64,000 nucleotides of DNA, from assembly GCA_015665415.1 (NCBI GenBank), contig JADFAE010000026.1, positions 1-64,000 of the forward strand, read 5' to 3'. A model generated the notes under the pieces. It saw only the letters and a program-made list of their open reading frames with translations. It was not told where the DNA came from and did not search any database. Source of the DNA: Roseobacter sp. GTDB taxonomy: Bacteria; Pseudomonadota; Alphaproteobacteria; Rhodobacterales; Rhodobacteraceae. Below are positions 1 through 20,775 of this stretch, piece after piece. Made by a program: the position numbers and the translations under genes. Each line of letters begins with the position of its first letter. Positions within the stretch are counted from its first letter, which is position 1.

Positions 1-597
1 TGGAGGCGGTCACAGTATAGCCCCCCGCCGTGGCATTGGCCGTCGCCGTCACCGAGGCCAGACCCGAGGCATCCGTCACATCCGAGGCCGCCGAGAGACC
101 GGCGCTGGCACCACTGCCCGGCGCGGCGAAGTTCACCGTCACCCCCGAGACCGGATTGCCCCCGGCATCCGTCACCAAGGCCGTGAGCGCGGTACCAAAG
201 CTGCTGGAGATCGCGGTCGACTGGCTGTCGCCGCTGCTCACCGCCAGGCTCGCCGCCGCCCCCGCAGTATTGGTCAGCGCAAATGTCACATCGCTCAAGC
301 CCGTGCTGGAGGCGGTCACAGTATAGCCCCCCGCCGTGGCATTGGCCGTCGCCGTCACCGAGGCCAGACCCGAGGCATCCGTCACATCCGAGGCCGCCGA
401 GAGACCGGCGCTGGCACCACTGCCCGGCGCGGCAAAATTCACCGTCACCCCCGAGACCGGATTGCCCCCGGCATCCGTCACCAAGGCCGTGAGCGCGGTA
501 CCAAAGCTGCTGGAGATCGAGGTGCTCTGGCTGTCACCGCTGCTCACCGCCAGACTCGCCGCCGCCCCCGCCGTATTGGTCAGCGCAAAAGTTTGAT
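1..597. repeat. Tandem 306-bp repeat encoding near-identical Ig-like domains
   Basis: The sequence at 1 (tggaggcggtcacagtatag) recurs at 307, so the period is 306 bp, or 102 codons. The two units differ at only a few scattered positions up to about 590, after which the sequence diverges into an older, less similar repeat. The array runs off the left edge, so the total number of copies cannot be known. Near-identity at DNA level implies recent duplication or gene conversion. Confidence 0.9.
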
Positions 598-1345
598 CGG
601 AAATCCCAGAACTTGTAGCCGTCACGTTGAAAGAACCGGCGGTGGAATTCGCCGTGAAGGTGCTGGAGGTCGCCACACCGGAGCCATCGGTTGTCACGGT
701 TTCACTTGCCGTGCCGGAACCGGAAAACGTGCCACTAGCACCGGATCCCGGAGCCGTGAAGGTCACCGAGGTTCCGGGCACGGGCGTGCCGCCGGAATCC
801 TCGACCACTACCGTGAGGACCGATGCATAGGAGGTTGAAATCGTAGCGCTTTGGCCGCCCCCGGTGGGGGAAGAGAAGGCAGCAGGCGGCCCCACCGAAC
901 TGCCTACAGATCCACTTGCACCAGAGGAGGTATAGGTAAAGTTGATCGACGTGCCGCCATGGGTGCCGGTGACGGAACAACCGCTGGAACAGTCAGGGAA
1001 CTGGGCCGGTGGAAAAGTTGAGCCATTCACCTGGACGGAGAGTACGGTTGCGTCGCCCCCGCCTTCAAAAGTTTGAAAAGTTGTGCCTCCGGAGCCATTC
1101 AGTACCGCGATCAGGATATAGTCTTCGCTTCCGTCAGAATTTCCTGTCGGTATGGACGAGGAAAAGTGACACTCATCGTCCGTGAGGTTCAAAGCGATTT
1201 CTTGCGCAACAGCGGTCATGGCCGGGCAATCGGTATAGGCCGCGTTTACCGGTCTAGACATTGCAACCATAAGAATCAAAAAACTCACTGCTGAAAATGC
1301 AGAGATGGTGTTTTGAATTGCCCTGAAATGTTTGATTTTATGCAA
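1..1345 (-). CDS. Secreted bacterial Ig-like (Big_1-type) repeat protein, partial
   Basis: This leftward reading frame is open from about 1345 to the window edge, so the C-terminus is missing. The N-terminus reads as a signal peptide: a basic stretch (KIKHFRAI), a hydrophobic core (ISAFSAVSFLILMVAM), then a likely cleavage near VNA-AY. A Cys-containing N-terminal domain of about 110 residues follows. After that come Ig-like domains rich in Thr, Ser, Gly and Val, with the repeated phrases FGTALTALVTDAGGNPVSGV and VTFALTNTAGAAASL. These are typical of bacterial Ig-like group 1 (invasin/intimin-type) domains in surface adhesins. The start is uncertain. TTG at 1345 keeps the whole signal peptide but has no clear ribosome-binding site; ATG at 1270 or 1261 would cut into it. 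Forward-strand frames here are shadows of the repeat. Adhesin is an inference. Confidence 0.75.
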   Translation of the reverse strand, partial: MHKIKHFRAIQNTISAFSAVSFLILMVAMSRPVNAAYTDCPAMTAVAQEIALNLTDDECHFSSSIPTGNSDGSEDYILIAVLNGSGGTTFQTFEGGGDATVLSVQVNGSTFPPAQFPDCSSGCSVTGTHGGTSINFTYTSSGASGSVGSSVGPPAAFSSPTGGGQSATISTSYASVLTVVVEDSGGTPVPGTSVTFTAPGSGASGTFSGSGTASETVTTDGSGVATSSTFTANSTAGSFNVTATSSGISDQTFALTNTAGAAASLAVSSGDSQSTSISSSFGTALTALVTDAGGNPVSGVTVNFAAPGSGASAGLSAASDVTDASGLASVTATANATAGGYTVTASSTGLSDVTFALTNTAGAAASLAVSSGDSQSTAISSSFGTALTALVTDAGGNPVSGVTVNFAAPGSGASAGLSAASDVTDASGLASVTATANATAGGYTVTAS

Positions 1346-1567
1346 TTTAATTATACAGATACTCAATATCTTACATCTTGGACTTTGAGCATCCCTCCCG
1401 CAAAATTTTTGTTTTCAATTTTAAATTGCGTTAATTTGTGAAAAATGCAAGCCTCTGCAAAGACGATTCATAATTAATAAAACTCACCTCAGAGGTGTTG
1501 CTCTTTACCTACAATGGATTTCCCGGAGAAATCACGACATTTCACGATCTTTTATTGGAGGCCCTAC
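1346..1567. other. AT-rich divergent intergenic region with a short palindrome
   Basis: This stretch separates the leftward Ig-like gene from the rightward tail-collar genes and is much richer in A and T than its surroundings, as expected for a divergent promoter region. It holds a perfect short palindrome, CACCTC-a-GAGGTG, at 1485-1497. The GTG start of the first collar gene lies about 70 bases further on. I cannot assign a -35/-10 pair with confidence. Confidence 0.4.
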
Positions 1568-2080
1568 GTGTCAGAACCATTTCTTGCTGAAGTCAGGATG
1601 GTAGGATTCAACTTCGCTCCACGTGGGTGGGCGTTTCTTGATGGACAAATCCTTCCTATCAATCAGAATCAATCCCTCTACTCGATTTTAGGAACAACCT
1701 ATGGAGGTGATGGCCGAACCTCCTTTGCGCTGCCTGATTTACGGGGCCGCACACCTTTGCATGTCGGTGACGGGCATGGGCTTGGCCAAAAGAGCGGGGC
1801 GGAAACGGTCACCCTGACAGCAGCAGAGATTGGCGCGCATACCCACGCCGTCAAAGCGTCATCGGCGACAGGCAACCAGACCACGCCCACAGGCCATTTG
1901 CTGGCCACAGAAGTTGCACCTGATGCAGCCTATCGCGATCCGGAGGCTGCGAACGCAACCGCGTTGCGCAGCGGCACCCTCACCAATGCAGGCGGCGGGC
2001 AAGCGCATAACAACATGCAGCCCTTTGTTGTGCTCAATTTCTGCATCGCTTTGCAGGGGCTGTTTCCTTCACGCAACTAG
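1568..2080 (+). CDS. Phage tail collar (Mdp-type) protein 1
   Basis: This 170-residue protein begins MSEPFLAEVRM when started at GTG 1568, which has a GGAG ribosome-binding site 8 bases upstream. The two neighbours start with the same MSEPF sequence. It contains the collar-domain signature of microcystin-dependent-protein (Mdp)-type proteins: NFAPRGWAFLDGQ near residue 15, ILGTTYGGDGRTSFALPDLRGR near 40-60, HTH near 85, and a C-terminal NMQPFVVLNFCIALQG. The family resembles the receptor-binding tips of phage tail fibres, but many bacterial members sit outside prophages and have no proven role. It is the first of three tandem paralogs. An upstream ATG at 1514 would add an unconserved 18-residue extension. 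Confidence 0.85.
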   Translation: MSEPFLAEVRMVGFNFAPRGWAFLDGQILPINQNQSLYSILGTTYGGDGRTSFALPDLRGRTPLHVGDGHGLGQKSGAETVTLTAAEIGAHTHAVKASSATGNQTTPTGHLLATEVAPDAAYRDPEAANATALRSGTLTNAGGGQAHNNMQPFVVLNFCIALQGLFPSRN

Positions 2081-2097
2081 GTCCCGGAGGACGCTAA

Positions 2098-2616
2098 ATG
2101 TCAGAACCCTTTGTTGGCGAAATTCGCATGTTTGCCGGAAATTTCGCACCACGCGGATGGGCCTTTTGTGACGGTCAGCTTTTGGCCGTTTCGCAAAACG
2201 ACGCTCTGTTTTCTTTGCTAGGGACCATCTACGGCGGCGATGGGAGGACCACATTTGGTCTACCCGATGTGCGTGGTCGCCTACCTGTTCATGCGGGCAC
2301 GGGTCCAGGCCTTAGCGCGCGCCGCTTGGGGGCCAAGGGAGGGGGCGAAACAGTCACTTTGACGACCAATCAACTGGCCAGTCACACCCATGACTTCAAC
2401 GCCAACAAGGCCTCCGCAACAGTCGTAGCGCCAGCTGGCAAAGTGGTTGCCAAGGGTGAAGCGGTCGCCTTTCTAAGCAATGTCGCGCAGAATACCGATT
2501 TGGCCTCCAACATGGTTGCCAATACAGGTGGCAGCCAGCCTCACACCAACCTGATGCCCGCGCTCTGCGTGAATTACATCATCGCTCTCTTTGGCATTTA
2601 CCCAAGCCGCACCTAG
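2098..2616 (+). CDS. Phage tail collar (Mdp-type) protein 2
   Basis: This 172-residue paralog of the preceding gene starts 17 bases after it with its own GGAGG site. It keeps the N-terminal MSEPFVGEIRMFAGNFAPRGWAFCDGQ, the GTIYGGDGRTTFGLPDVRGR core, an HTHDF motif near residue 100, and the C-terminal hydrophobic IIALFGIYPSR. The segment of about 50 residues between the HTH motif and the C-terminus differs from both neighbours, as expected if that part is the exposed, target-specific loop. The tight spacing argues for co-translation and stoichiometric or heteromeric use of the three proteins (inference). Confidence 0.85.
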   Translation: MSEPFVGEIRMFAGNFAPRGWAFCDGQLLAVSQNDALFSLLGTIYGGDGRTTFGLPDVRGRLPVHAGTGPGLSARRLGAKGGGETVTLTTNQLASHTHDFNANKASATVVAPAGKVVAKGEAVAFLSNVAQNTDLASNMVANTGGSQPHTNLMPALCVNYIIALFGIYPSRT

Positions 2617-2627
2617 GAGGTCTTCAA

Positions 2628-3161
2628 ATGTCAGAACCCTTTATTGCTGAAATTCGTATTTTTGCAGGTAATTTTGCCCCCCGGAGCTGGGCATTTTGCG
2701 ATGGTCAATTGCTACCAATCGCACAAAATACAGCGCTGTTTTCACTGATTGGGACCACCTATGGCGGTGACGGGCGCACAACCACGGCCCTGCCAAATCT
2801 GGAGGGGCGGGCACCAATGCACCCCGGCCGCGGCCCCGGCCTGACCGCGCGACGTCTAGGCGAGAGGACTGGCTCCGAAACAGCAACTTTGAGTGAGGCA
2901 CAGATTCCGTCACACAGCCATACAGCACGCGGCACAACCTCTGCTGGAACGCTGGGCCTGGTGCCTAATACCAATGCCTCTTTGTCTGCGCAGGGGTTTG
3001 GAGACAAACTCTACCAATCAGGAACCACCTCTAATCTGGTCGACATGGCGAGCGAGACGTTGAGCACCACCGGGGGTGGGCAGTCCCATACAAACGTACA
3101 GCCTTTTTTGACCCTGAATTTCATCATTGCCCTACAGGGGCTCTACCCCTCGCGAAGTTAA
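2628..3161 (+). CDS. Phage tail collar (Mdp-type) protein 3
   Basis: This is the third paralog, 177 residues, starting 11 bases after collar gene 2 with a TAGGAGG site. It shows MSEPFIAEIRIFAGNFAPRSWAFCDGQ, TTYGGDGRTTTALPNLEGR, a SHSHTA motif near residue 97 and a C-terminal FIIALQGLYPSRS. It is closest to protein 2 in the N-terminal half. No tail tube, sheath, baseplate, capsid or lysis gene is near, so the trio looks like a domesticated or stand-alone cassette and not part of a prophage. Function unknown. Confidence 0.85.
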   Translation: MSEPFIAEIRIFAGNFAPRSWAFCDGQLLPIAQNTALFSLIGTTYGGDGRTTTALPNLEGRAPMHPGRGPGLTARRLGERTGSETATLSEAQIPSHSHTARGTTSAGTLGLVPNTNASLSAQGFGDKLYQSGTTSNLVDMASETLSTTGGGQSHTNVQPFLTLNFIIALQGLYPSRS

Positions 3162-3280
3162 TTTCCCCTCACCGCAATTGCAGGCCCCCGGTTTTATCGA
3201 TGACAGCTTTCCGGGACATGCCTCTGTTTGCCTCTACAACGTTGCAAACCGTTCCACCTCACAGCGCAAGGACTTGAATT

Positions 3281-4531
3281 TTGCCAAATAGAGACAGCGT
3301 TTCCACAGATCTCACCGCGGCGGCCGACACCTCCTCCTCATATTTTCGCATCTTGGTGGCTGCGATCAACCGCTCTGGGGAACTGATCTATGCCGATCAG
3401 CTGAGTGAAAACGGTCCAATGCCGCAGGAGTTCACTCGGTTGGGGACCCAAAGCTACACCAGCGCAAACCTGCAGGCTTCCACAACCATGGACGGCTATG
3501 TCTCCATACTGGCCGCGCGTTCTGAGAACCACCACCTGATGTACTTTGCCGAGAGCCGGTCGGACACTGGCGGCGGCCGGTTTTCGGATCCGGAGGATCT
3601 TGGGCTACCCAAGTCAACATCTGGCTTTGATGGAACCAATTTGATCAACGGCCTAAACGGTCTTGCCAATATCTTTGGCGTCACCCCTGGTCACGAACCG
3701 GAAACCTGGTGGAAGTTCGAAAATCCATACACGGTTGAAACCGTCACTGAATTTGTGACACCACCGGGCATGAAACAGCCCATCGAAGTCACGGTCCAGG
3801 AAGTTGTCCCACCCAGCCAGCGCTGGTCAGATTGGGCCCAAATCCCGGGCAAGATGGTTTCCGTATCTGCCGCCAACAATGCGGACGGGCGCATCTTTCT
3901 CGCCGGGCTGGATGACCAGGGGTGCCCCTCGCTGAATGTTCAGACCGATAAGCACCCAGACAACCCGGAATTCTGGTCGGGCTGGACCCGGCTCGATCCC
4001 GGTGTTGGCACTGTAAGCCAGATTGAAATGATGCTGGATGCCAATTCCCTGCTCCACATCTTTGCCAGCTGCGGCCAGAACATCTATATGAAAGTACAGA
4101 CCGAAGTTGGCAAAACCAGCTTCACGAATTGGGTCATGTTTGCCATGTACAGCGCGCCGGTGAACGGATTCGCAGTCGGTGCCGGCGTTGATGGCCTGCT
4201 TTGCCTGACAGCCCAGATCGGCACCAAGGGCCCAACCGCCATTTTTGGCTCCTATCAACTGCCCGACGCACCGAACAGCTGGTCCCAACCAGCCAAGTTC
4301 GCCACGAACCCAGCGCTGAGCGAATTGGTGTTGCAGCCCAATGCCGATGCACGGATAAGCCTTTTTGCACGCAGTGCAGAGACGGGGTTGCTGCGCTCTT
4401 TGGATCAGGTGATCGGCAATTTCTGGTCGATGGAATGGAAGACCCTGCATGCGGACATTCGCAACTTTGCCACCACTCAGGACGTCACCCTCTCTGTCCA
4501 TCAATTGGCGGCGTCGCAGGGGACAGAATGA
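3281..4531 (+). CDS. Propeller-like repeat protein of unknown function
   Basis: This 416-residue protein has no evident signal peptide. The only start in frame with a site (AAGGA, 8 bases upstream) is TTG 3281. Loosely repeated units of about 45-60 residues carry the pattern 'W..W..........V......DGRI.LF..', for example WSDWAQIPG, FWSGWTRLDPG, FTNWVMF and WSMEWKTL. This resembles beta-propeller lectins of the PLL/tectonin sort; the assignment is from pattern only. It follows the three collar genes by 119 bases, and its stop codon overlaps the start of the next gene, so at least these two genes are translationally coupled. A carbohydrate-binding role is inferred. Confidence 0.6.
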   Translation: MPNRDSVSTDLTAAADTSSSYFRILVAAINRSGELIYADQLSENGPMPQEFTRLGTQSYTSANLQASTTMDGYVSILAARSENHHLMYFAESRSDTGGGRFSDPEDLGLPKSTSGFDGTNLINGLNGLANIFGVTPGHEPETWWKFENPYTVETVTEFVTPPGMKQPIEVTVQEVVPPSQRWSDWAQIPGKMVSVSAANNADGRIFLAGLDDQGCPSLNVQTDKHPDNPEFWSGWTRLDPGVGTVSQIEMMLDANSLLHIFASCGQNIYMKVQTEVGKTSFTNWVMFAMYSAPVNGFAVGAGVDGLLCLTAQIGTKGPTAIFGSYQLPDAPNSWSQPAKFATNPALSELVLQPNADARISLFARSAETGLLRSLDQVIGNFWSMEWKTLHADIRNFATTQDVTLSVHQLAASQGTE

Positions 4532-5076
4532 CGCCCTTGCCCAAACTAGATCACGCGGCCTGCCACCAAATCGGGTTTCGCGTGATCACCGAGGCCGACA
4601 TGGGCTTTCTGTCGCAGCTCTACCGCTCGTCCCGCGAGGAGGAGCTGACGCAGGTGCCGTGGAGCGAGGCAGAAAAACAGGCGTTTTGTGATATGCAGTT
4701 CGATGCACAGCATCAGCATTATCAAAAACACTACCCTGATGCGCTGTGGCTGATCATCGAACAGCAGCGCGTGCCAATCGGACGGCTCTATCTTGAACGC
4801 TGGCCAAAAGAGCACCGCGTGATCGATATCGCCCTCTGCCCGGCGGCACGGGGTCAAGGCATAGGCGGGGCCTTGCTGCGGGATTTACAGGCCGGAGCTG
4901 CGGCCGATGGGTCCAGGGGCCTTGGCATCCATGTGGAAAAGGCCAACCCGGCGATGGCGCTTTACCATCGTCTCGGCTTTGTCACGATAGAGGAGAAAGG
5001 GGTCTATGACCTGCTGCGCTGGACCCCCGCCCCAACCATGGATGTTACAGGTCAGGTAAAGACCGCCTCATACTGA
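4528..5076 (+). CDS. GNAT-family N-acetyltransferase
   Basis: This 182-residue protein starts at ATG 4528 inside an ATGA overlap with the propeller gene. It has the GNAT fold signature: acetyl-CoA loop ARGQGIGGALLRDLQ around residue 110, and the C-terminal VEKANPAMALYHRLGFV motif typical of RimI-like small acetyltransferases. Substrate unknown. Its coupling to the propeller and collar genes suggests it modifies a cassette protein or a small molecule bound by it (inference). Its last 25 bases overlap the convergent DUF6916-like gene. Confidence 0.85.
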   Translation: MTPLPKLDHAACHQIGFRVITEADMGFLSQLYRSSREEELTQVPWSEAEKQAFCDMQFDAQHQHYQKHYPDALWLIIEQQRVPIGRLYLERWPKEHRVIDIALCPAARGQGIGGALLRDLQAGAAADGSRGLGIHVEKANPAMALYHRLGFVTIEEKGVYDLLRWTPAPTMDVTGQVKTASY

Positions 5077-5345
5077 AAACCAGCCTCTGACTGCGCGACC
5101 GGAACCAGAAAAATTTCATGTGTTCCAAAACTTGCCTGCGAGAGAGAATAGGCACCCTGGGCCAGGCCTGGACTGGTAGGACCTTGCCACAGCGTCGAAA
5201 ACGCGCCGCCCTTGCGTTCCCCCGAGCCAAGTATCTTGACCTCGCTCAGCACAAGCGAAACATCGGCATCCAGGCCCGTGATGCAAAAGCTCTGCCCCTC
5301 AAGCGCGGCAAAATCTTCCGTGGTGGCATCTTTTATATCTAGCAA
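5052..5345 (-). CDS. DUF6916-like small protein
   Basis: This 97-residue leftward gene is read from TTG 5345, preceded by AGGGAG/GGGAAG. Its sequence pattern (EDFAALEGQSFCI, then a beta-rich middle, WQGPTSPGLAQGAYSL, and a final HEIFLVPV-YEAVF) matches my memory of the small DUF6916 family, which I associate with clusters encoding tail-collar proteins. It overlaps the 3' end of the GNAT gene by 25 bases in convergent orientation. There is no signal peptide or membrane segment. Family call moderately sure; function unknown. Confidence 0.6.
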   Translation of the reverse strand: MLDIKDATTEDFAALEGQSFCITGLDADVSLVLSEVKILGSGERKGGAFSTLWQGPTSPGLAQGAYSLSQASFGTHEIFLVPVAQSEAGFQYEAVFT

Positions 5346-5598
5346 CTTCCCTATCTCCCTTTGGCTGTTGTCTGCACCAACGTTGCCCGCTCAAGGCTCT
5401 CTTTCCAAGTGAATTCCAACGCCAAACTCCCCCTTTAAGTGCAGGGCGCCCGACCATAGCCGTCATTGCCAACCGCCCGAAGCACCGAAAATGAACACAC
5501 AACCATATCGCGAGTGCAGCATTCTCACGAAGCTTTCACAGACCAGTTCTTAAAATGCGACTCAATCACCAAAAGCTGGTGAAGTTCCGGAGGGGAAA
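5346..5598. other. Intergenic region, divergent promoters presumed
   Basis: This is about 250 bases between the leftward DUF6916-like gene and the rightward protease gene. Ribosome-binding sites are visible at both ends (AGGGAG for the left gene, GGAGGGG at about 5589-5595 for the right). I see no RNA gene, repeat or clear operator. Confidence 0.5.
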
Positions 5599-7155
5599 AT
5601 GACTAACAACAAGACGGCTGAAAAAGCCCCGAAAAACCCGTCGTATGCAGAGCTGACGCGGGTGCTGCGCAAAGCCCATCACGCTTTTGGAAATCGTGCG
5701 AATTTTCGCGGGCTTGATATCGGCTACCGCTGGCAACAAGGTCAGCCCACCGACGAGGTCTGCCTGCGCGTTCACGTTGACAGGAAACTGCCGTGCGACG
5801 CCTTGATGCCACCGCAGATTTTTCCCACAGAGGTGGACGGCATCAGGTTAGATGTAATCGCCGCCAGCTACAGTCCCTCGCTGGAGCCGGGGACCTCCCG
5901 CAGCGCCGCCGCCCGCCAACCCTATACCATGGGCGGGCTGTCCTGTGGTCGCCATGGTGAAGGAACCGGTACCATCGGCCTGGTGGTGATCGACAGCACC
6001 ACCGGCAAGCCTGGCATTTTGTCAAACTGGCATGTTTTGGCTGGCCCCCGCGCGCGGCGCAATGATCCGATCACCCAGCCAGGGGGCAACGATGGCGGCT
6101 TTGACCCGCGCGACCGCGTTGCCCGGCTGAAACGTTGGTTGCTGGACCGCAACGGCGATGCCGCCCTGGCAGAGCTCTTGCCCGACCAGCCCTGGCTGCC
6201 GCTGCAATTTGGCACGTTTGAGACCGTCACCAAGACCAGATCTGCCCGTCTTGGCGAAATCCTCACCAAAACTGGACGCTCCGGGCCGCTGCAACGCGCC
6301 CGCGTTGATGGCACCGGTCTCTACCGTCTCCCTTATGAAACGCGTCCCGGAATCTATGAATACCGCGACATCGAAGGCTTCAAGCTGGTGGCCATCGAGG
6401 AAAGCTCTGAGATCGCCGCTCCGATTTCCGCTGCCGGGGACAGTGGCGCGGCCTGGATCTCTGCCAGTTCCGGGGAGGCCGTAGGCCTGCAGTTTGGCGA
6501 AGATGTCCCACCCGGCCCACGCGTTGGAGCCGCATCGAGCGGGGCCATCGCCTGCGACCTCGGCACGGTATTTGAAAAGCTGGAAGTGCGTCTCGCTGAA
6601 TTTCGCGACCTGCTTGAGCAAAACAGCCCCAACCCGGTCCTGACCCCACATCAACGCGACCAGGCCAATATCTCGACGTCTGCAGATGCCCCTAGCCCCG
6701 GCTGGCCGCATCCAGCCCATTGGACAGATAACAGCCTTCAGGCAATGTCGATCTCAGGTCGCCCCGACCGCGCCCAGGGGCGGTCTCCAGCTGGGGATAT
6801 CGTGCCCTTGATCCGTGTGTCGCCCAATGGCCGATTGCCCAGTCCGATCCGCGATCATCACCGCAATATCGCACCACAGTTCAGTCTTGCCCAGGATATC
6901 TGGTTGATGCGGCTCTATCCGGCGCTGCTGGACTACGACGTCAACTTTCGCGGAGTTTTTCTGGACGAACCTATCGCGCAACGGATTTCGGCGGTGGACA
7001 GCCATGGCATGCACGCTTTTTTTGCCCGTCTCATCAACAGCACCCGGCATTTTGATGGCATTGGGCTGAAGCAGATGCAGCCCATCGATTTCGAAGGGGT
7101 CGTCACCTATTTTCAGGTCTGTCAACGTATCAATGCGCTGCTGGAGCAGCTCTGA
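5599..7155 (+). CDS. Trypsin-fold serine protease-like protein (Nal1-like)
   Basis: This is a 518-residue cytoplasmic-looking protein with no signal peptide and a strong GGAGGGG site. A chymotrypsin-type triad can be read: His145 in ILSNWHVLAG, Asp187 in RNGDAAL, and Ser282 in AAGDSGAAW. The arrangement (GxLSNxHV ... GDSGA) resembles the Nal1-type putative serine proteases known in plants and bacteria. The C-terminal 180 residues lack an obvious domain; a proline-rich linker at about 355-385 separates them. It lies just after the collar/propeller/GNAT cassette, beyond the convergent DUF6916-like gene. Processing of a cassette product is possible but unproven. Confidence 0.7.
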   Translation: MTNNKTAEKAPKNPSYAELTRVLRKAHHAFGNRANFRGLDIGYRWQQGQPTDEVCLRVHVDRKLPCDALMPPQIFPTEVDGIRLDVIAASYSPSLEPGTSRSAAARQPYTMGGLSCGRHGEGTGTIGLVVIDSTTGKPGILSNWHVLAGPRARRNDPITQPGGNDGGFDPRDRVARLKRWLLDRNGDAALAELLPDQPWLPLQFGTFETVTKTRSARLGEILTKTGRSGPLQRARVDGTGLYRLPYETRPGIYEYRDIEGFKLVAIEESSEIAAPISAAGDSGAAWISASSGEAVGLQFGEDVPPGPRVGAASSGAIACDLGTVFEKLEVRLAEFRDLLEQNSPNPVLTPHQRDQANISTSADAPSPGWPHPAHWTDNSLQAMSISGRPDRAQGRSPAGDIVPLIRVSPNGRLPSPIRDHHRNIAPQFSLAQDIWLMRLYPALLDYDVNFRGVFLDEPIAQRISAVDSHGMHAFFARLINSTRHFDGIGLKQMQPIDFEGVVTYFQVCQRINALLEQL

Positions 7156-11898: not shown

Positions 11899-12261
11899 GA
11901 CTTGTTTTGCAGCGCGACGATGGCCAGTCGCGCAGATGATCTCAAGATCCAACTTCAAGTACAAATGTTCTTTCCAGCTCGTTCCTCTACCCGCCTCGTC
12001 AATTTAGGAGCCTGATCAACCTGGCAAGTTTGGGGGCAGGACAGATCAATCAGTTGGGCCAAGGGAAAATTCCCATTCCCAACCATCTGATTAGGCTCCC
12101 CAAGACTGGTCTCAAGATTTGAAAAGATGCAACTGGCTGCAAAGCAGGGTATCATCTGGACCTAGAGTATCGGGCAAATATGGCGTTTCGTCAGGATAGA
12201 ACGACTCCGGCTGACAGGCAGCTGGCAGACACCCAACTCTTTTAATATGGAAGGACATGTC
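11899..12261. promoter_or_regulatory. Divergent region between the BKACE gene and tpa
   Basis: About 360 bases carry the TauR-like direct repeats described separately and the tpa ribosome-binding site (AAGGA at 12251-12255). A small inverted repeat, GGGAA-aa-TTCCC, lies at about 12063-12074. No leftward-facing TauR-like repeat of good quality precedes the BKACE gene, so its membership in the taurine regulon is unsupported. No RNA gene is seen. Confidence 0.5.
12133..12165 (+). promoter_or_regulatory. TauR-type direct repeats upstream of tpa
   Basis: CTGGCTGCAA (12133-12142) and CTGGACCTAG (12156-12165) are direct repeats 23 bases apart, about 96 bases before the tpa start. The second is close to the CTGGACTTAA-like half-site that I recall for TauR regulators in Rhodobacter relatives, where TauR is known to bind direct repeats upstream of tpa. 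A weaker copy, CTGGTCTCAA, lies at 12106. Confidence 0.6.
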
Positions 12262-13659
12262 ATGGACGGCACGTTCAACGAAAACGATCTCAGCCGGGTA
12301 GTTGCGGCTGACAAAGCTCATGTCTGGCATCACCTGGTACAGCATAAACCCTTTGAAGAAAGTGATCCTCGTATCATCGTCGAGGGCAAGGGTATGCGCG
12401 TCTGGGATCAGAACGGCAAAGAATACCTGGATGCGGTGTCCGGCGGCGTCTGGACCGTCAACGTCGGCTACGGCCGCGAAGAGATCTGCAAATCCGTCTA
12501 CGACCAGATGATGAAACTGTGCTATTTTGCCCAGTCCGCAGGCTCGATCCCCGGTGCATTGTTTGCCGAGAAACTGATCGAAAAGATGCCGGGCATGAGC
12601 CGCGTCTACTATAACAACTCCGGCTCCGAGGCGAATGAGAAAGCCTTTAAGATGGTGCGCCAGATCGCGCACAAGAAATACGGCGGCAAGAAAACCAAGA
12701 TCCTGTATCGCGACCGCGACTATCACGGCTCCACTCTGGCGGCGATGTCCGCTGGTGGCCAGGATGAGCGCAACGCGCAATACGGCCCCTTTGCGCCCGA
12801 CTTTGTCCGCGTGCCCCATTGCATGGAATACCGCAAGCATGAGTTGGGCCTGGAGCATCTGTCGGGTCGTGACTTTGGCATTGCCGCTGCCAATGCCATC
12901 GAAGAAGTAATCCTGCGCGAAGGCCCCGAAACCGTTGGTGCGCTCTGCCTGGAGCCCGTCACCGCGGGCGGTGGCGTGATCGAGGCCCCCGAAGGCTATT
13001 GGGAGCGCGTGCAGGAGATCTGCAAACAGTATGACGTGCTGCTGCACATCGATGAAGTGGTCTGTGGCGTTGGCCGCACCGGTACCTGGTTTGGCTATCA
13101 GCACTACGGGATCAAACCCGATTTTGTCACCATGGCCAAAGGTGTTGCCTCCGGCTATGCGGCGATTGCTCTATTGGTCACCACCGAAGAGGTCTTTGAC
13201 ATGTTCAAGGACGATGCCTCGGATCCGATGAGCTATTTCCGCGACATCTCTACCTTTGGCGGCTGCACCTCTGGCCCTGCTGCGGCGCTGGAAAACATGC
13301 GCATCATCGAAGATGAAGGCCTGCTGGAAAATTGCACCGCAATGGGTGAGCGGATGATGAACAATCTGTTGGCGCTGAAAGAAAAGCACCCTGTCATTGG
13401 CGATGTACGCGGCAAGGGTCTGTTCCTTGGTGCCGAACTGGTGAGCGACCGCGAGACCAAAGAGCCAGTGGACGAGAAACTCGCCCAGCAGGTGGTTGGC
13501 GATTGCGGGGCCCAAGGCGTTTTGATCGGTGTTACCAACCGCTCCATTCCCGGAAAGAACAACACGCTCTGCTTCAGCCCCGCGCTGATCGCTACTGCCG
13601 ATGACATCGATGCCATCACCGATGCCGTCGACAAGGCCCTGACCAAGGTCTTTGGCTAA
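12262..13659 (+). CDS. tpa: Taurine-pyruvate aminotransferase
   Basis: This 465-residue class III aminotransferase moves the amino group of taurine to pyruvate, giving sulfoacetaldehyde and alanine in the cytoplasm. The PLP motifs LLHIDEVVCGVGRTG and FVTMAKGVASGYAAI (Schiff-base Lys) are intact. The N-terminal VWHHLVQHKPF and the YFRDISTFGG segment are as I know them from Tpa. The start is ATG 12262, with GAAGGA 7 bases upstream; ATG 12247 lacks a site. TauR-like repeats precede it, and xsc, pta and the sulfite genes lie 5 kb downstream. No alanine dehydrogenase or tauABC importer is in the window. Confidence 0.93.
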   Translation: MDGTFNENDLSRVVAADKAHVWHHLVQHKPFEESDPRIIVEGKGMRVWDQNGKEYLDAVSGGVWTVNVGYGREEICKSVYDQMMKLCYFAQSAGSIPGALFAEKLIEKMPGMSRVYYNNSGSEANEKAFKMVRQIAHKKYGGKKTKILYRDRDYHGSTLAAMSAGGQDERNAQYGPFAPDFVRVPHCMEYRKHELGLEHLSGRDFGIAAANAIEEVILREGPETVGALCLEPVTAGGGVIEAPEGYWERVQEICKQYDVLLHIDEVVCGVGRTGTWFGYQHYGIKPDFVTMAKGVASGYAAIALLVTTEEVFDMFKDDASDPMSYFRDISTFGGCTSGPAAALENMRIIEDEGLLENCTAMGERMMNNLLALKEKHPVIGDVRGKGLFLGAELVSDRETKEPVDEKLAQQVVGDCGAQGVLIGVTNRSIPGKNNTLCFSPALIATADDIDAITDAVDKALTKVFG

Positions 13660-13687
13660 GAAACTCGGTCACATATCAATTTCGAAG

Positions 13688-13713
13688 CGCTCCGGTTTTG
13701 CCGGGGCGTTTTT
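13688..13713 (+). terminator. Rho-independent terminator after tpa
   Basis: The stem CGCTCCGG / CCGGGGCG (one G-T pair) has a short T-rich loop and is followed by TTTTT, 29 bases after the tpa stop. This makes tpa a single-gene transcript. Confidence 0.8.
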
Positions 13714-13798
13714 CATTTCAACTCAAAACAGAAGGCGCACCTTGAAAAGCAACCTAGAATCCCCATGTTAAGCTCCAGGCTTGGCTTCAAGGATTGCG

Positions 13799-14188
13799 AT
13801 GTTTTCATTTCTGACGCGCATACTCGGCCAATACAGGGCAGAAGTGCTGCGCTACTATGTCAGAGAATATGCTGTTCTTAGCATCGCAGCCATACTAGCC
13901 GTTGCTGGAATGCTTTCCCTGTTCCTTTTCTTGGACCCAGAGCGACACGTTCATGATAGCTATGTCATTGGCGATGTGTCCGGTGTGCTCCACACTTCAA
14001 GTGACATCAGTAATCGTTTCATTGTCGATGTTCGCCTCCCAGATGGCTCCAGCCACCGATTGACTACTCGACACGGAAATATCATGGGCTCGATCTCGGA
14101 CCGCGCGTGCCTCGAACGCAGGCGCAAAGAACCAAGTGGCCGCGTATTTTATTCCCTTTCCCCTGCCCAAAAGTGCAAGGACTGGTAA
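13799..14188 (+). CDS. Small membrane-anchored hypothetical protein
   Basis: This 129-residue protein is not recognised. The ATG at 13799 has AAGGA at the right distance; the upstream TTG at 13781 does not. Residues about 24-48 (AVLSIAAILAVAGMLSLFLFL) form one membrane segment. A soluble part of about 80 residues with beta-strand-like pattern follows (SYVIGDVSGVLHT, FIVDVRLPDGSS, HRLTTRHGNIMGSI). It ends with a basic Cys-containing tail. The base composition is poorer in GC than its neighbours. The gene stands alone between the tpa terminator and an acetyltransferase gene. Confidence 0.6.
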   Translation: MFSFLTRILGQYRAEVLRYYVREYAVLSIAAILAVAGMLSLFLFLDPERHVHDSYVIGDVSGVLHTSSDISNRFIVDVRLPDGSSHRLTTRHGNIMGSISDRACLERRRKEPSGRVFYSLSPAQKCKDW

Positions 14189-14308
14189 GGCCAATCCAGA
14201 TTGAGGCATCCCAATTGGACTGACACTTTTGAACAATAGTGGCTCTTTTCAGCGGGCCGCTTAACCTGCAGTCTGGCCCAAACACCACCTCGACGAAGGA
14301 CTTCTACC

Positions 14309-14890
14309 ATGTGGGCCAAACCCATCACTCTCTCCGGCAGCCAGGTCACACTTGCGCCGCTGTCCCAGGCCCATGCCGCAGATCTGGCCGAGGCCAGCGC
14401 CGATGGCAATCTCAGCCAGCTCTGGTACACCTCGGTTCCCGCCCCCGCTGATGTCCCAGCGGAAATCGACCGCCGCCTCGCGCTGCAACGGACAGGCAGC
14501 ATGGTGGCCTTTGCCATTCTGGATGCCCAGGGCCGCCCCGTCGGCATGACCACCTACATGAATATTGATGCCGCCAACCAGCGGCTGGAAATCGGCTCGA
14601 CCTGGTATCGTAAATCGGTGCAGCGTTCCGGCCTCAACACCGAATGCAAATTGCTGATGCTACGGCACGCCTTTGAGACCCTCGGTGCCATCGCGGTGGA
14701 GTTCCGCACCCATCGGCTCAATCAGCAAAGCCGCCGTGCGATCGAGCGTCTCGGGGCGCAGCTGGATGGTGTTTTGCGCGCCCATATGAAGATGCCCAAT
14801 GGCACCCTGCGCGACACTGCCGTCTATTCCATCACCGCCGCGGACTGGCCGACAATTCAGGCGCATCTGACCCATGCGCTGACCCGTTAA
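14309..14890 (+). CDS. RimJ/RimL-type GNAT acetyltransferase
   Basis: This 193-residue protein has the ribosomal-protein-serine/alanine acetyltransferase-like GNAT architecture: an N-terminal ITLSGSQVTLAPLSQAHAADL, the central GMTTYMNIDAANQRLEIGSTWYR, the NTECKLLMLRHAFE helix and the final FRTHRLNQQSRRAIERLGAQLDGVLR. Members acetylate N-termini of proteins or small metabolites; the target here cannot be told. It is a single gene, not evidently tied to the taurine genes on either side. Confidence 0.85.
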   Translation: MWAKPITLSGSQVTLAPLSQAHAADLAEASADGNLSQLWYTSVPAPADVPAEIDRRLALQRTGSMVAFAILDAQGRPVGMTTYMNIDAANQRLEIGSTWYRKSVQRSGLNTECKLLMLRHAFETLGAIAVEFRTHRLNQQSRRAIERLGAQLDGVLRAHMKMPNGTLRDTAVYSITAADWPTIQAHLTHALTR

Positions 14891-15249
14891 CCGCGGCGGC
14901 TTATCCTTGACGCAGATACTCTGCACAGACTGGCAACAGCCCCCTGAGGGGCGGGCCTGGCCTTCAGGGGCATCTCGGAAAAGCCCGCTTATCTTGTGGC
15001 GGCAACAGATCTTTCCACGCGCGCAAGATATGTCCAGCCACAACAGCGCCGCGCGGCAGCGCGGCGCCTGGCCCAACGGGAGGCAGGCATTCTGCGAATG
15101 ACAATCTCCGGGCGGGAGCCCCCTCTTTCCCAAGCGGGAGCCACGCCAAAACACTGTCGCCCCGCTGTCGGGTGAATGTCGTGTTGCTGTCGTGGCTCTT
15201 GGCGTAACATGCCCCTAACTGTCGGCACAGAACAGAAGGAACACCCTGC
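14891..15249. other. Intergenic region holding a structured repeat
   Basis: About 360 bases without a gene. The middle is occupied by copy A of the dispersed hairpin repeat described separately (15046-15118). The last 15 bases hold the GAAGGA site of the HTH-2TM gene. The first 100 bases contain CCCTGAGGGGCGGG-type GC-rich sequence with no clear function. No tRNA or coding frame with support is seen. Confidence 0.5.
15046..15118 (+). repeat. Dispersed hairpin repeat, copy A
   Basis: A 9-bp perfect stem GCGCCGCGC / GCGCGGCGC (15046-15067) is followed by GCCCAACGGGAGG at 15071-15083 and GGGCGGGAG at 15110-15118. The same order of hairpin, GGCCCAACGGGAG and GGGCGGGAG occurs at 47461-47535 and, inverted, at 42985-43064. 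It resembles a REP/BIME-like intergenic element. Confidence 0.75.
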
Positions 15250-15741
15250 GTGATTGTCAGAAAACTCCGTCTCGAAAAGGGATATTCGCAAGAGCAACTG
15301 GCCGAAATGGCCGGGATCAGCACCCGGACCCTGCAGCGCATTGAACGCGGTGCCACTGCCAGTCCGGAAACCCTGAAATGCATTGCCTCTGTTCTGGAAA
15401 CGGATTTCACCAATCTCAGAAAGGAGCCAGACATGCCAACTCAACCCGCCCCCGGATTGCCCGAACTTCCGGCCCATGAGCGCGAAGCCCTCGAATATGT
15501 GCGCGACATCAAGTCCTTTTACATGCATGCCCTGCAATACGGCGTTGTGATGTTGGGGCTCCTGGTGCTGAATTTGGTGACCAGCCCTGGTTATTTCTGG
15601 GTGATCTGGCCCGCCTTGGGCTGGGGCATAGGCGTCGTTGCCCATGGGCTCAGCACCTTTGAGGTGATCAATGTCTTTGGTGATGATTGGGAGCGACGCC
15701 AGATCGACAAGCGCATTCGCCGCAACAGGCGGCGCAGCTGA
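15250..15741 (+). CDS. XRE-type regulator fused to a 2TM domain
   Basis: This 163-residue protein starts at GTG 15250, with GAAGGA nearby. Residues 1-60 form a Cro/C1-type helix-turn-helix (VRKLRLEKGYSQEQLAEMAGISTRTLQRIERG). Residues about 75-163 match the 2TM domain: a short amphipathic lead, two membrane helices (YGVVMLGLLVLNLV and YFWVIWPALGWGIGVVAHGL), then a conserved WERRQIDKRI tail. Such proteins are membrane-tethered DNA-binding proteins of unknown signal. No obvious target gene is beside it; the convergent permease operon follows. Confidence 0.8.
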   Translation: MIVRKLRLEKGYSQEQLAEMAGISTRTLQRIERGATASPETLKCIASVLETDFTNLRKEPDMPTQPAPGLPELPAHEREALEYVRDIKSFYMHALQYGVVMLGLLVLNLVTSPGYFWVIWPALGWGIGVVAHGLSTFEVINVFGDDWERRQIDKRIRRNRRRS

Positions 15742-15764
15742 ACCGATACAGGCGGGTCACAGAA

Positions 15765-15788
15765 AACAGGGCCAAGAGCGGCCCTGTT
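15765..15788. terminator. Terminator hairpin between convergent genes
   Basis: A perfect 9-bp stem AACAGGGCC / GGCCCTGTT with a 6-base loop. Read leftward it is followed by TTTTCT, so it most likely ends the permease operon. It may also serve the HTH-2TM gene. Confidence 0.7.
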
Positions 15789-15810
15789 CGATCTTTATAC
15801 AAAACGCCGC

Positions 15811-16857
15811 TCAGATCATCTGGAACACGATGCCAGAGACAATGGCCCCGCTGACGCCCAGCCCCAGATAGGTGGCAAAGACCTGCGGCTTTACCAGAGA
15901 CCAGACCGCTGCCATCGCCGGGATAGAGCTCACCGCGCCGGCCACCATAAAGGCCATCGCCGCCCCCGGGGTCATCCCCTGCTCCAGCAGCCCGGCCAAC
16001 AGCGGCGGTGCAACATAGGAGTTGAGGTAAGCAGGCATGCCCACCAAGGCTGCAATAGCAATCGGCAACACCCCTTCGCCGCCCACAGCCTTGGCAATCA
16101 GATCGGCGGGAACATAGTTCACCAAAATGGCTTCCAACACATAGGCCAGTGCCAACCATTTCAACAGAAACAGCCCGTTGCTGACAAACTCCTCGCGAAA
16201 CGTCTGACGCCGCGCGTCCTGCTGCCAAAACCGCCAGTGCGGCTTGTCCTCCAGCCTGGGCCCAGCGCAGCCGCAGGCAGAACGGCTCTGCGCCTGTTTC
16301 AGCGGGCTGGAAAACGCTCCATGCCCCATGAGTGTTTTAATGAAGAAGCCGCCAAACAGCCCCAGCACGACGGCAATCACGGCCTTGCCGATGGCAAAAT
16401 CCCACCCCAACGCGCCTGCCGTAATCAACAGGGTGGGCGGGTCAATCAGCGGCGAGGCCAGCCAAAAGGCCATCACCGCCGACAGCGGCGCGCCCAGCGC
16501 CAAGAGCCCGGCAATAAAAGGGATCACCTCACAGGAACAAAACGGTGCCAAGCCCCCAAACAGAGCCGCCAGAAAAATCATCCGGGTTTCACGGCCCTCA
16601 AAAGCGCGCGCCACCATGACCTCTGCGCCGGTGGCCTTGAGGTAGGACAACAGCAGCACCGCAAAGAGAATATATTGCCCGGTATGGACCAGTGCAGCTG
16701 CTGCAAAGGACAGAACCGACATAAAGTTGCCCGGGTCCAACAGGGCCACAGCAATCAGGATCGCCACACTCAGCGTCCAGGGCGTTTTCAGCCAGGTCAG
16801 AGAAAAGCCAGCGCTCTTAGGTGCTTGCGAGGGGGAGTTTTGCGACAGATCAGCCAT
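15811..16857 (-). CDS. UPF0718/COG0701 permease (ArsP-like)
   Basis: This 348-residue integral membrane protein has about 8 to 10 membrane segments, starting LKTPWTLSVAILIAVALLDPG. It carries the family hallmark FGGLAPFCSCEVIPFIAGLLALGAPLSAVMAF and the matching C-terminal GMPAYLNSYVAPPLLAGLLEQG half. A cytoplasmic loop has CGCAGPR. Relatives include ArsP, an efflux permease for trivalent organoarsenicals, and permeases of unknown substrate. The start overlaps the arsR-like gene by 8 bases, so the two are one operon. TauR-like repeats lie upstream of the operon, so a role in sulfonate or sulfite metabolism is an alternative to metalloid export. Confidence 0.85.
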   Translation of the reverse strand: MADLSQNSPSQAPKSAGFSLTWLKTPWTLSVAILIAVALLDPGNFMSVLSFAAAALVHTGQYILFAVLLLSYLKATGAEVMVARAFEGRETRMIFLAALFGGLAPFCSCEVIPFIAGLLALGAPLSAVMAFWLASPLIDPPTLLITAGALGWDFAIGKAVIAVVLGLFGGFFIKTLMGHGAFSSPLKQAQSRSACGCAGPRLEDKPHWRFWQQDARRQTFREEFVSNGLFLLKWLALAYVLEAILVNYVPADLIAKAVGGEGVLPIAIAALVGMPAYLNSYVAPPLLAGLLEQGMTPGAAMAFMVAGAVSSIPAMAAVWSLVKPQVFATYLGLGVSGAIVSGIVFQMI

Positions 16858-17161
16858 CGTTTGCAGCCTCTTGTGTTTGGTCGGCGCAGCATTCGCTGAG
16901 GATGAAATCAGCCAATCTCTGCAACTGGTCGAAATTGGCCCGGTTGAGAATGCTGCGCCCGACGCGCTCTTGCTGGACGACGTCGGCGCCGGTCAGGAAT
17001 TTCAGATGATGGGCCAGCGTTGAAGGCGCAATACCGGTGCGGTCCTGGATTTCGCTGACGGTTACTCCCTGGTGTCCGGCCCGGATCAGACAGCGCAGCA
17101 CTTGCAAACGCGCCTCCGATCCCATTGCGGCAAAGCCCTGCGCCGCCTCTTCCCACAACAT
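16850..17161 (-). CDS. ArsR-family transcriptional regulator
   Basis: This 103-residue winged-helix repressor has an AMGSEARLQVLRCLIRAG N-terminal helix, the recognition helix TGIAPSTLAHHLKFLTGADVV, and the wing QQERVGRSILNRANF. A Cys pair near the C-terminus (LSECCADQ) may sense metal or thiol-reactive compounds. The ATG at 17161 has GGAGTGA upstream. It overlaps the permease gene and has a clear inverted-repeat operator 24 bases upstream, so it should autoregulate the operon. Confidence 0.88.
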   Translation of the reverse strand: MLWEEAAQGFAAMGSEARLQVLRCLIRAGHQGVTVSEIQDRTGIAPSTLAHHLKFLTGADVVQQERVGRSILNRANFDQLQRLADFILSECCADQTQEAANDG

Positions 17162-17184
17162 GTCATGTCACTCCAATTGATTCG

Positions 17185-17221
17185 ATAAAACTAGTTATAT
17201 AGTTTTATATTCACATTGCAA
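17185..17221 (-). promoter_or_regulatory. ArsR operator overlapping the arsR-permease promoter
   Basis: A perfect inverted repeat ATAAAACTA (17185-17193) and TAGTTTTAT (17200-17208) with a 6-base spacer. Read leftward, TTGCAA (17216-17221) and the TATAAC-like sequence inside the repeat make a plausible -35/-10 pair. A repressor bound here would block RNA polymerase. Confidence 0.65.
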
Positions 17222-17245
17222 CCCCATGGATTTCCACCCATCCGT

Positions 17246-17277
17246 CTAAGTCCAGATTGCACCCGCCTTATGTCCAC
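17246..17277 (-). promoter_or_regulatory. TauR-type direct repeats facing the arsR-permease operon
   Basis: On the minus strand, GTGGACATAA (17268-17277) and CTGGACTTAG (17246-17255) are direct repeats 22 bases apart. The proximal one is 84 bases from the arsR start, the same distance as the proximal repeat upstream of xsc from its start. The pair also lies just in front of the tauR start (17293), so it could mediate autorepression of tauR. Confidence 0.55.
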
Positions 17278-17292
17278 CTTAAGGTGCCCGTC

Positions 17293-18753
17293 ATGGCTAT
17301 ATCCGTTGACACCTTCTTTCTAAATCCCGACGCTCAGGGGACCCTGCAGGCCCAGATCCAGGAAATGATTGCCGAGGGCATTCTCTCCGGGCGTTTTCGC
17401 GTTGGGGAAAAACTGCCTTCCTCGCGAAAACTGGCTCTGCATCTTGGCATCAGCCGGATCACCGTGACGATGGCCTACACTGAACTTCTGGCCAATGACT
17501 ACCTGACCTCGCGCGGGCGCTCCGGGTATTATGTTTCGCAAACCGCCCCCGTGCCGCCCAGTTATACGCCTCCGGTGCAATCCGAAGACGCTGTCGACTG
17601 GGGCCATATGCTGGTGCGCAGTTTTACTGGCGGTGACACGCCCAAAAAAGCCCCCGACTGGCGCAGCTACAAATACCCCTTTATTTACGGCCAGGCCGAT
17701 CCGGCCCTGTTTGATCACGCCAATTGGCGGCTTTGTGCTTTGCGGGCGCTGGGGCAAAAGGATTTTGCCGCCCTTACCGATGATTATTTCGACCAGGATG
17801 ACCCGCTGCTGATCGAATATATCGCCCGCCATACCCTGCCCCGGCGCGGTGTCATTGCCCGCCCTGAACAGATTCTGATCACGCTGGGGGCGCAAAACGC
17901 CTTGTGGATGGCGGGCCAACTGTTGCTCAATCGCGGTCGCAAAGCCACCATCGAAGACCCCACCTATTACACCATGCGCGACCAGCTGCACCATGTCGGC
18001 TGTCAGATTGATTACATCCCGGTAGACCGGGACGGCTTGCCCCCGCAGGAAATCGCCGAAGACACTGATGTAATCTTCTGCACCCCAAGCCACCAGGCCC
18101 CAACAACCGCAACCATGCCGATGCCACGGCGCAAGGAATTGCTGCAACGCGCCCGCGACATCGATGCCGTTATCGTCGAGGATGATTACGAATTCGAGAT
18201 GTCCTTTCTCGGAGCCCCCTCACCCGCATTGAAATCCCTCGATACCGACGGCCGGGTCATCTATATCGGCAGCTTTTCCAAATCGCTGTTTCCCGGCCTG
18301 CGTCTGGGCTACATGGTCGGCTCAGAGGCCTTTATTCGCCAGGCCCGCGCCCTGCGGGCAAAAGTGCTGCGTCACCCGCCTGGTCATATTCAGCGCACGG
18401 TGGCCTATTTCCTCTCGCTGGGGCACTACGACGCCCAAATTCGCCGCACCGCCAAAGTGCTGCATGATCGCCGCAGCGTCATCGAAGAGGCGGTCAACCT
18501 ACATAACCTCTCGATTTCTGGCGTCGGCGTCTATGGGGGGTCCTCGCTGTGGATGCACGCCCCTGAAGGCACGGATATGGCGCAGGTGGCGCAGGATCTG
18601 AAACCCGACAGTGTCATCATCGAACCCGGTGCTCCTTTCTTTTCGGCAGGCAACCGGCAACATAACTTTTATCGGCTGGGATATTCCTCGATTTCCGCCA
18701 GCCGAATTACCCCCGGCCTCGCGCTTTTGGCCAAGGCCTTGAAGCAGGCGTGA
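17293..18753 (+). CDS. tauR: MocR-type taurine regulator TauR
   Basis: This 486-residue protein has a GntR winged helix at the N-terminus (GILSGRFRVGEKLPSSRKLALHLGISRITVTMAYTELLANDYL) and an aminotransferase-fold PLP domain. The PLP lysine lies in YIGSFSKSLFPGLRLGYM. MocR regulators of this type activate tpa and xsc in response to taurine in Rhodobacter relatives and bind direct repeats. The ATG at 17293 follows TAAGG; the longer frame uses a TTG without a site. Its neighbour xsc, and the direct repeats before tpa and xsc, support the TauR assignment over other MocR proteins. Confidence 0.9.
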   Translation: MAISVDTFFLNPDAQGTLQAQIQEMIAEGILSGRFRVGEKLPSSRKLALHLGISRITVTMAYTELLANDYLTSRGRSGYYVSQTAPVPPSYTPPVQSEDAVDWGHMLVRSFTGGDTPKKAPDWRSYKYPFIYGQADPALFDHANWRLCALRALGQKDFAALTDDYFDQDDPLLIEYIARHTLPRRGVIARPEQILITLGAQNALWMAGQLLLNRGRKATIEDPTYYTMRDQLHHVGCQIDYIPVDRDGLPPQEIAEDTDVIFCTPSHQAPTTATMPMPRRKELLQRARDIDAVIVEDDYEFEMSFLGAPSPALKSLDTDGRVIYIGSFSKSLFPGLRLGYMVGSEAFIRQARALRAKVLRHPPGHIQRTVAYFLSLGHYDAQIRRTAKVLHDRRSVIEEAVNLHNLSISGVGVYGGSSLWMHAPEGTDMAQVAQDLKPDSVIIEPGAPFFSAGNRQHNFYRLGYSSISASRITPGLALLAKALKQA

Positions 18754-18881
18754 ACACTGCGCATCTCAAGTTAATGATACAATTTATCTCATTTTTTGAA
18801 TGATAATCTGCGGTGTGAATTTCTTCTCACCCCCTGAAGCCATTGAAAGAATCCAGTTTCAGCTGCGTCCCAGATCAAATT

Positions 18882-18913
18882 CTGGATCTACTCGCGTTTG
18901 AAACTGGCCCTAA
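18882..18913 (+). promoter_or_regulatory. TauR-type direct repeats upstream of xsc
   Basis: CTGGATCTAC (18882-18891) and CTGGCCCTAA (18904-18913) are direct repeats 22 bases apart, ending 84 bases before the xsc start. A weaker CTGGCTCTGC lies at 18923. In the leader, GGGATTAATCCC (18940-18951) is a perfect palindrome of unknown role. Confidence 0.55.
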
Positions 18914-18997
18914 CTGACGGCGCTGGCTCTGCATAAACCGGGATTAATCCCCGGCATGAGACCGGGGCTCTATGCGTCTCACTTAGGAGCATCCGAC

Positions 18998-20770: not shown

Positions 20771-20775
20771 TCGCA

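Follow-up and report, generated by a model that had tools for sequence, protein, structure and literature searches.

Chromosomal trimers that resemble phage fibres serve in recognition in Bdellovibrio, where the chimeric fibre (MAT) proteins have other domains and another gene set than those described here. The 'tail collar' of PMC12724201 and PMC4727817 (PubMed Central (PMC) records, accessible parts) refers to phage or pyocin-type genes. A collar protein of Ruegeria pomeroyi DSS-3, YP_165745.1, is listed in the exoproteome with Synechococcus in the available portion of PMC4949626. Our search of the open-access PMC literature, a scope outside which most subscription journals and preprints lie, found only single-collar relatives and no description of the cassette reported here. 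This cassette lies at the start of a 64,000-nucleotide stretch of Roseobacter sp. (assembly GCA_015665415.1, contig JADFAE010000026.1, positions 1 to 64,000 of the forward strand; hereafter the window) and comprises three collar genes with a GNAT acetyltransferase, a DUF6916 protein and a giant repeat protein as neighbours. It is a dedicated, widely conserved, non-phage cassette. With moderate confidence, and on sequence comparisons, we propose that it is a chromosomal surface-recognition cassette with a domesticated collar heterotrimer as its head, a dedicated GNAT, a DUF6916 partner and a giant adhesin.

The three collar genes stand in tandem on the plus strand at 1568..2080 (170 aa), 2098..2616 (172 aa) and 2628..3161 (177 aa), with intergenic gaps of 17 and 11 bases. 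The first starts with GTG at 1568, has GGAGG upstream, and is preceded by an in-frame ATG at 1514. All three proteins match PF07484 (94-105 bits against a curated cut-off of 24, expectation values (E) of 4e-27 to 2e-30, collar 2 giving 2e-30). They share the N-terminus MSEPF, as a first-pass annotation of this DNA had described for the paralogs, and close with PSR and a single further residue. Identity to collar 1 is 52% for collar 2 and 51% for collar 3.

That annotation placed the differences among the paralogs in a loop after an HTH motif. A helix-turn-helix is rejected: the letters belong to a His-x-His pair (HTH, HTH and HSH in collars 1 to 3), which is present in all 237 collars of the triplet loci defined below. 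By sequence, the collar region matches T4 gp12 (1ocy, E 4.5e-6) and the long tail fibre 8kec (E 5.4e-11). A His-x-His in the head after the collar is a feature of gp12-type receptor heads; the pair aligns in 8kec (LPSHQHG), and the alignment to the T4 entries reaches only as far as the collar. The divergent part is the loop between His-x-His and GGxQxH. Across eight congeneric genomes, the window's included, paralogs average 20% identity in the loop versus 64% in the N-terminal core, and orthologs are 50-55% identical in the loop versus 86-92% in the core. The claimed loop divergence is thus confirmed, and these identities are consistent with different binding specificities; the fast-evolving loop fits a putative target-binding surface. 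One single collar from another locus (L064 in our numbering, 426 aa) has one core motif, and its variable loop is lengthened by an insert of about 150 residues.

Phage tail fibres typically contain collar domains, and PHROG tail families match all three collars. Both would be expected if a prophage or tailocin had left these genes behind, as a remnant or as cargo, the collars being the tips of a tail that is lost or lies far away. We consider this origin highly improbable. The absence of nearby phage genes, already remarked on in the first-pass annotation, is upheld by a PHROG scan of nine downstream genes, which returned general enzymes and families of unknown function and no tail, head or lysis family; likewise, no virion or lysis genes are annotated around the cassette copy of Ruegeria sp. 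TM1040. All 444 matching phage records are below 60% identity (15 are listed at 37-40%, the best-ranked at 39%), whereas collar 2 is 70-72% identical to cellular proteins in Chloroflexi and Acidobacteria records. Cellular partners are also conserved with the collars, in a fixed order.

In the window, the GNAT gene (4528..5076, plus strand, 182 aa) follows a beta-propeller gene (3281..4531, plus strand), and the two overlap by 4 bases, which confirms the coupling that had been noted. The DUF6916 gene (5052..5345, minus strand; a small all-beta protein, PF21880 E 8e-23) is convergent, as described before, and overlaps the 3' end of the GNAT gene by 25 bases. A collar triplet was found in 7 of the 11 congeners searched, with no match in the other 4. 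All seven keep one order: a divergent immunoglobulin (Ig)-like repeat gene, collars 1, 2 and 3, GNAT, convergent DUF6916, then katG. The TM1040 megaplasmid (collars TM1040_RS01850-01860, GNAT RS01870) has the same order as the window, propeller included, at identities of 72-75% for the collars, 40% for the propeller, 59% for GNAT and 58% for DUF6916, and variants of the cassette occur on plasmids of Pontibrevibacter, Aminobacter, S. meliloti and Paenibacillus. The proposal of a dedicated, phage-free cassette is therefore borne out: the genes stay linked in relatives, contrary to the condition that would have refuted it.

The linkage and the gene order extend across phyla. We compared 182 collar loci, namely the window, 30 loci from the family, 80 from genome contigs (the best 80 by similarity, a biased sample with many metagenome bins) and 71 from the phylum set. 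Collar matches occur in 33 of 198 family genomes and 70 of 398 phylum genomes, the own genome being included in both; the two 398-genome phylum draws share identifiers and are taken as the same genomes. GNAT lies near collars in 64/80 genome-contig, 47/71 phylum and 4/30 family loci, and DUF6916 in 51/80, 35/71 and 4/30, respectively. The median distance is 190 bases from GNAT to collar and 67 bases from DUF6916 to collar or GNAT. A GNAT-family profile, built from the same loci, gave 117 hits in the 1,934 kb lying up to 6 kb from collars versus none in the 780 kb farther out. DUF6916 is encoded in 40 of the 398 phylum genomes; 38 of these also belong to the genomes listed with a collar, and of its 45 places 41 have a collar no more than 4 kb away. 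A split cassette was also seen, with DUF6916 (G248:C2:115035) 47 kb from the collars.

For a tree of collar positions we took the 79 loci with GNAT and exactly three near-complete collars on one strand, with gaps below 600 bases. Their 237 collars, from several phyla, need 28 changes of position label, versus 100-121 in 20 within-locus shuffles. The three collar positions behave as old, separate lineages.

The GNAT protein belongs to the GNAT superfamily by its match to Acetyltransf_1 (scanned as the longer open reading frame (ORF) 4201-5076). Its matches to RimI-like and N-terminal acetyltransferases are weak, and the RimI cut-off is missed (38.3 bits versus 86.4). A natural fusion of two collars with GNAT in one ORF (L166:7198-9048, minus strand) adds to the linkage, and together these tie the GNAT to the collars, to which it would be dedicated. 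The earlier suggestion that it modifies the collars stands as to this tie; acetylation of the collars is putative. Among the collars of GNAT-containing loci in a first set, residue 2 is Ser or Ala in 171 of 188. No alignment column has Lys in more than 22%, and 45 of the 237 collar proteins have none. The N-terminal alpha-amine of the collars is probably the likeliest target.

Many collars of GNAT-less loci carry Sec-type leaders. Scored per locus, GNAT accompanies none of the 21 collars with a leader, compared with 107 of the 131 that lack one. These 152 rows come from the 160 of 182 loci with a full-length collar, after omission of 8 in which GNAT is undecidable at contig ends; we used the stricter of two leader tables, as the looser rule mis-scored fused proteins in L169, L176 and L187 as leaders. 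This distribution raises the question of whether leaderless collars act inside the cell, for example as a sensor or decoy, with a cytoplasmic GNAT and DUF6916 and with the adhesin gene as a separate matter. In favour of this, all 107 GNAT-containing loci classified lack a leader (the looser rule flagged two collars as possible leaders), and a GNAT is expected to be cytoplasmic. We regard intracellular action as rather unlikely, given the leaders of GNAT-less relatives, DUF6916 proteins with leaders of the twin-arginine (Tat) type, fusions of collars to RTX, PEP-CTERM and giant proteins, the adjacency of giant ORFs, and the exported R. pomeroyi relative (PMC4949626, as far as accessible). The exported forms are mostly without GNAT, so intracellular action keeps some likelihood for the GNAT branch. 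There is no match to a PADLOC defence system, which also speaks against an intracellular role and on which ground a defence system was rejected.

The case for three collars per unit, for a place outside the cell and for GNAT acting with the collars rests mainly on the fusions. ORFs with more than one collar occur in 6 of the 182 loci, and the locus total is three collars in each of the six. L179:7547-9067 has a leader-like start, a C-terminal collar half, two collars, an N-terminal collar half and a PEP-CTERM signal, and may be read as three circularly permuted collars. A similar chain in L069:9086-10834 has a VPLPA-CTERM-like end just below the cut-off. The three-collar chain of L169:7529-9757 also begins with a C-terminal half and ends with an N-terminal half plus RTX repeats. 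In L067, two collars are joined to a 1767-aa RTX/DUF4214 frame, and a third collar, the first in order, is split over two frames. L167 has two fused collars and one free, and in L166 the free third collar lies alongside the two fused to GNAT.

The giant neighbour, absent from the first-pass annotation, is encoded divergently at the contig end with which the window starts. The frame at 1..1366 (minus strand) encodes the N-terminal portion of a giant, apparently autotransporter-like secreted protein built of Ig-like repeats, with a hydrophobic leader and a repeat length of about 102 aa; its start codon is not fixed, and it is truncated where it runs off the contig. The repeat unit is 306 bases with 96% matches between copies, and the contig breaks inside this gene (window 1-589). 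Another contig of the same genome, C21, opens with this repeat, after which comes a barrel-like domain with Phe as its last residue (L160 1-1541). In the congeners L237 (1783 aa), L238 (2117 aa) and L240 (789 aa), a single frame holds the leader-side repeats and the barrel; L042 also has leader, repeats and barrel in one frame, and in a further congener, L241, the frame is interrupted close to the barrel. Congeners differ in how many Ig-repeat matches they have. Because the repeat stands at both contig ends and congeners have a single frame, C9 (the contig of the window) and C21 probably carry opposite ends of a single gene that the assembly has split. In TM1040, the divergent protein (1895 aa) combines Ig-like domains with a Pfam Autotransporter domain (E 1.5e-23, 84 bits, cut-off 26).

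Adhesin-like giant ORFs, defined by our own criterion as ORFs of at least 900 aa and adhesin-like composition within 2.5 kb, accompany 60 of 115 loci with GNAT versus 15 of 66 without. Of the 67 adhesin-like ORFs found anywhere in GNAT-containing loci, 45 are at most 500 bases from the block and one overlaps it. A Pfam scan covering 22 of the 27 giant ORFs of the phylum set, taken shortest first up to 48,000 residues, identified DUF4347 (12), Big_9 (7), Cadherin (4) and Autotransporter (3), with Calx-beta and RTX as further domains. One giant ORF from Flavobacterium has a tail of the type IX secretion system (T9SS) type. Separately, oxidase-like genes at L044:5489-8862 (minus strand), with what we take to be a LodA-like N-terminus, have as neighbours one lone collar without GNAT and an Ig-repeat protein whose end is barrel-like.

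The giant neighbours also bear on an improbable account, in which the collars are secreted matrix or signalling-linked proteins, as has been suggested for RhiB and MrpB, and form free trimers in the medium with no adhesin attachment. It draws on the RhiB collar domain in a rhizobial quorum-sensing cluster (accessible part of PMC13133039), on MrpB, annotated as a phage tail gene and co-transcribed with mrpA (accessible part of PMC11448079), and on the R. pomeroyi collar in the exoproteome (PMC4949626, in its available portion). The giant ORFs nearby, and collars fused directly to anchored or giant proteins, argue against it.

The predicted structure of DUF6916 has six strands (predicted local distance difference test score (pLDDT) 94), and searches for fold relatives gave nothing better than E 0.4 in the PDB or 0.08 among viral models. 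DUF6916 paralogs with Tat-like leaders occur in 16 of 116 loci with GNAT versus 0 of 66 others. Tat-like calls were made in 32 GNAT-containing loci, several apparently spurious, and in 4 of 66 GNAT-less loci, and only the 16 with DUF6916 matches are relied on.

Surface recognition is the best-supported function of the cassette. The three collar paralogs would form one heterotrimeric head with a gp12-like collar fold, in which the His-x-His site seen once per chain may bind a metal and the fast-evolving loop after it may bind the target. GNAT would act on the collars, likeliest at the N-terminal alpha-amine, and DUF6916, sometimes with a Tat-type leader, may serve as adaptor, chaperone or export partner. 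Judging from relatives, the head would work outside the cell together with the giant Ig/cadherin-repeat adhesin, which appears autotransporter-like here and elsewhere has ends of the RTX/type I secretion system (T1SS) or T9SS type. In the window species, the PLL-type propeller probably adds a glycan-binding module. A more specific proposal can be made only tentatively: a new kind of surface organ, in which the collars form an obligate 1:1:1 heterotrimer that its own GNAT acetylates at the N-termini. The heterotrimer would fold and take up metal in the cytoplasm, leave the cell with DUF6916 as partner (in some lineages as Tat piggyback cargo) and sit on giant repeat adhesins of any secretion type. 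If so, the DUF6916 family would be defined by that organ.

Several observations weigh against the surface-recognition reading or parts of it. The window collars lack a signal peptide, the block encodes no Tat-like partner for them, and the own genome encodes only one DUF6916. The Pfam Autotransporter family matches neither the own barrel-like C-terminal part nor L042 or L237, and 55 of 115 GNAT-containing loci lack an adhesin-like giant ORF within 2.5 kb, to which contig or locus ends contribute. GNAT is missing near the collars in five of the six fused loci (L067, L069, L167, L169 and L179), and the export shown there need not apply to the GNAT branch. The mutual exclusion of leader and GNAT is not significant after phylogenetic pairing, with few changes on the tree (5 of leader, 14 of GNAT). 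In a random set, residue 2 is small (S/A/G/T) in 66 of 101 collars and 26 begin with Met-Asp/Glu, weaker than in the first set; a near-absolute N-terminal Ser/Ala rule was dropped, and the N-terminus is kept just as the likeliest GNAT target. Collars without GNAT are equally poor in Lys, a general scarcity that is not GNAT-linked and is therefore no proof against a Lys target. Finally, 60 of 181 loci have a single collar, which leaves room for homotrimers.

Two genes of the window that had been counted with the cassette fare differently. The propeller is related to PLL lectins, matching PLL2 both by profile (E 5.8e-28) and by predicted fold (E 9.9e-16, template modelling (TM) score 0.81 by target length, for a model with pLDDT 80 from a three-row alignment). 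A lectin-type propeller is thus present, as an accessory part: it occurs in 5 of 182 loci (window included), in 2 of 5 plasmid loci read and in none of the 7 congeners, and we reject it as a core part on this rarity. The NAL1-like trypsin-type protease (5599..7155, plus strand, 518 aa) has a PHROG protease match (4e-31), a NAL1_N match below cut-off, and the motifs SNWHV and GDSG. It occurs in 6 of the 7 triplet congeners but in none of 181 other collar loci searched, and five family loci retrieved for the protease are free of collars. It is a genus-level neighbour outside the core, and the processing role once suggested for it was not upheld. Farther on, at 12247-22535, the window encodes an aminotransferase, a MocR-type regulator, a thiamine-diphosphate enzyme, a permease and a phosphotransacetylase, presumably resembling a taurine/sulfoacetaldehyde route. 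A family that we take to be of the Hint type recurs near collars in six family loci (L049, L051, L059, L065, L066 and L069).

Genes of this kind carry the annotation 'tail fiber protein' in public records and are easily mistaken for phage debris. If the surface-recognition reading is true, a broad class of 'phage genes' would be a bacterial adhesion or recognition system, DUF6916 would be placed in context, and what a dedicated acetyltransferase does could be tested in the tractable Ruegeria sp. TM1040 or Sinorhizobium meliloti.

Among described systems, T4 gp12 and the 8kec fibre share with the cassette the collar region by sequence, with the aligned His-x-His in 8kec; the proteins here are instead stand-alone chromosomal proteins of 170-177 aa, in three lineages, with GNAT and DUF6916 and without a tail. 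RhiB (rhiABCD operon, rhizobia) and MrpB (Microcystis) are likewise bacterial, non-virion proteins of collar or phage-tail type, but, compared by description in the accessible parts of PMC13133039 and PMC11448079, each stands as a single gene of this sort, partnered by rhi genes or by mrpA, and these parts mention no triplet, GNAT or DUF6916. The Photorhabdus PLL/PHL lectins resemble the window propeller in sequence and predicted fold, whereas the latter is only 16-20% identical in the fold match and is encoded beside a collar triplet. Giant bacterial adhesins with Ig or cadherin repeats and autotransporter, RTX or T9SS ends are similar to the giant neighbour in size, repeats and secretion-type ends, and what sets the present locus apart from them is the companion collar triplet with its acetyltransferase.

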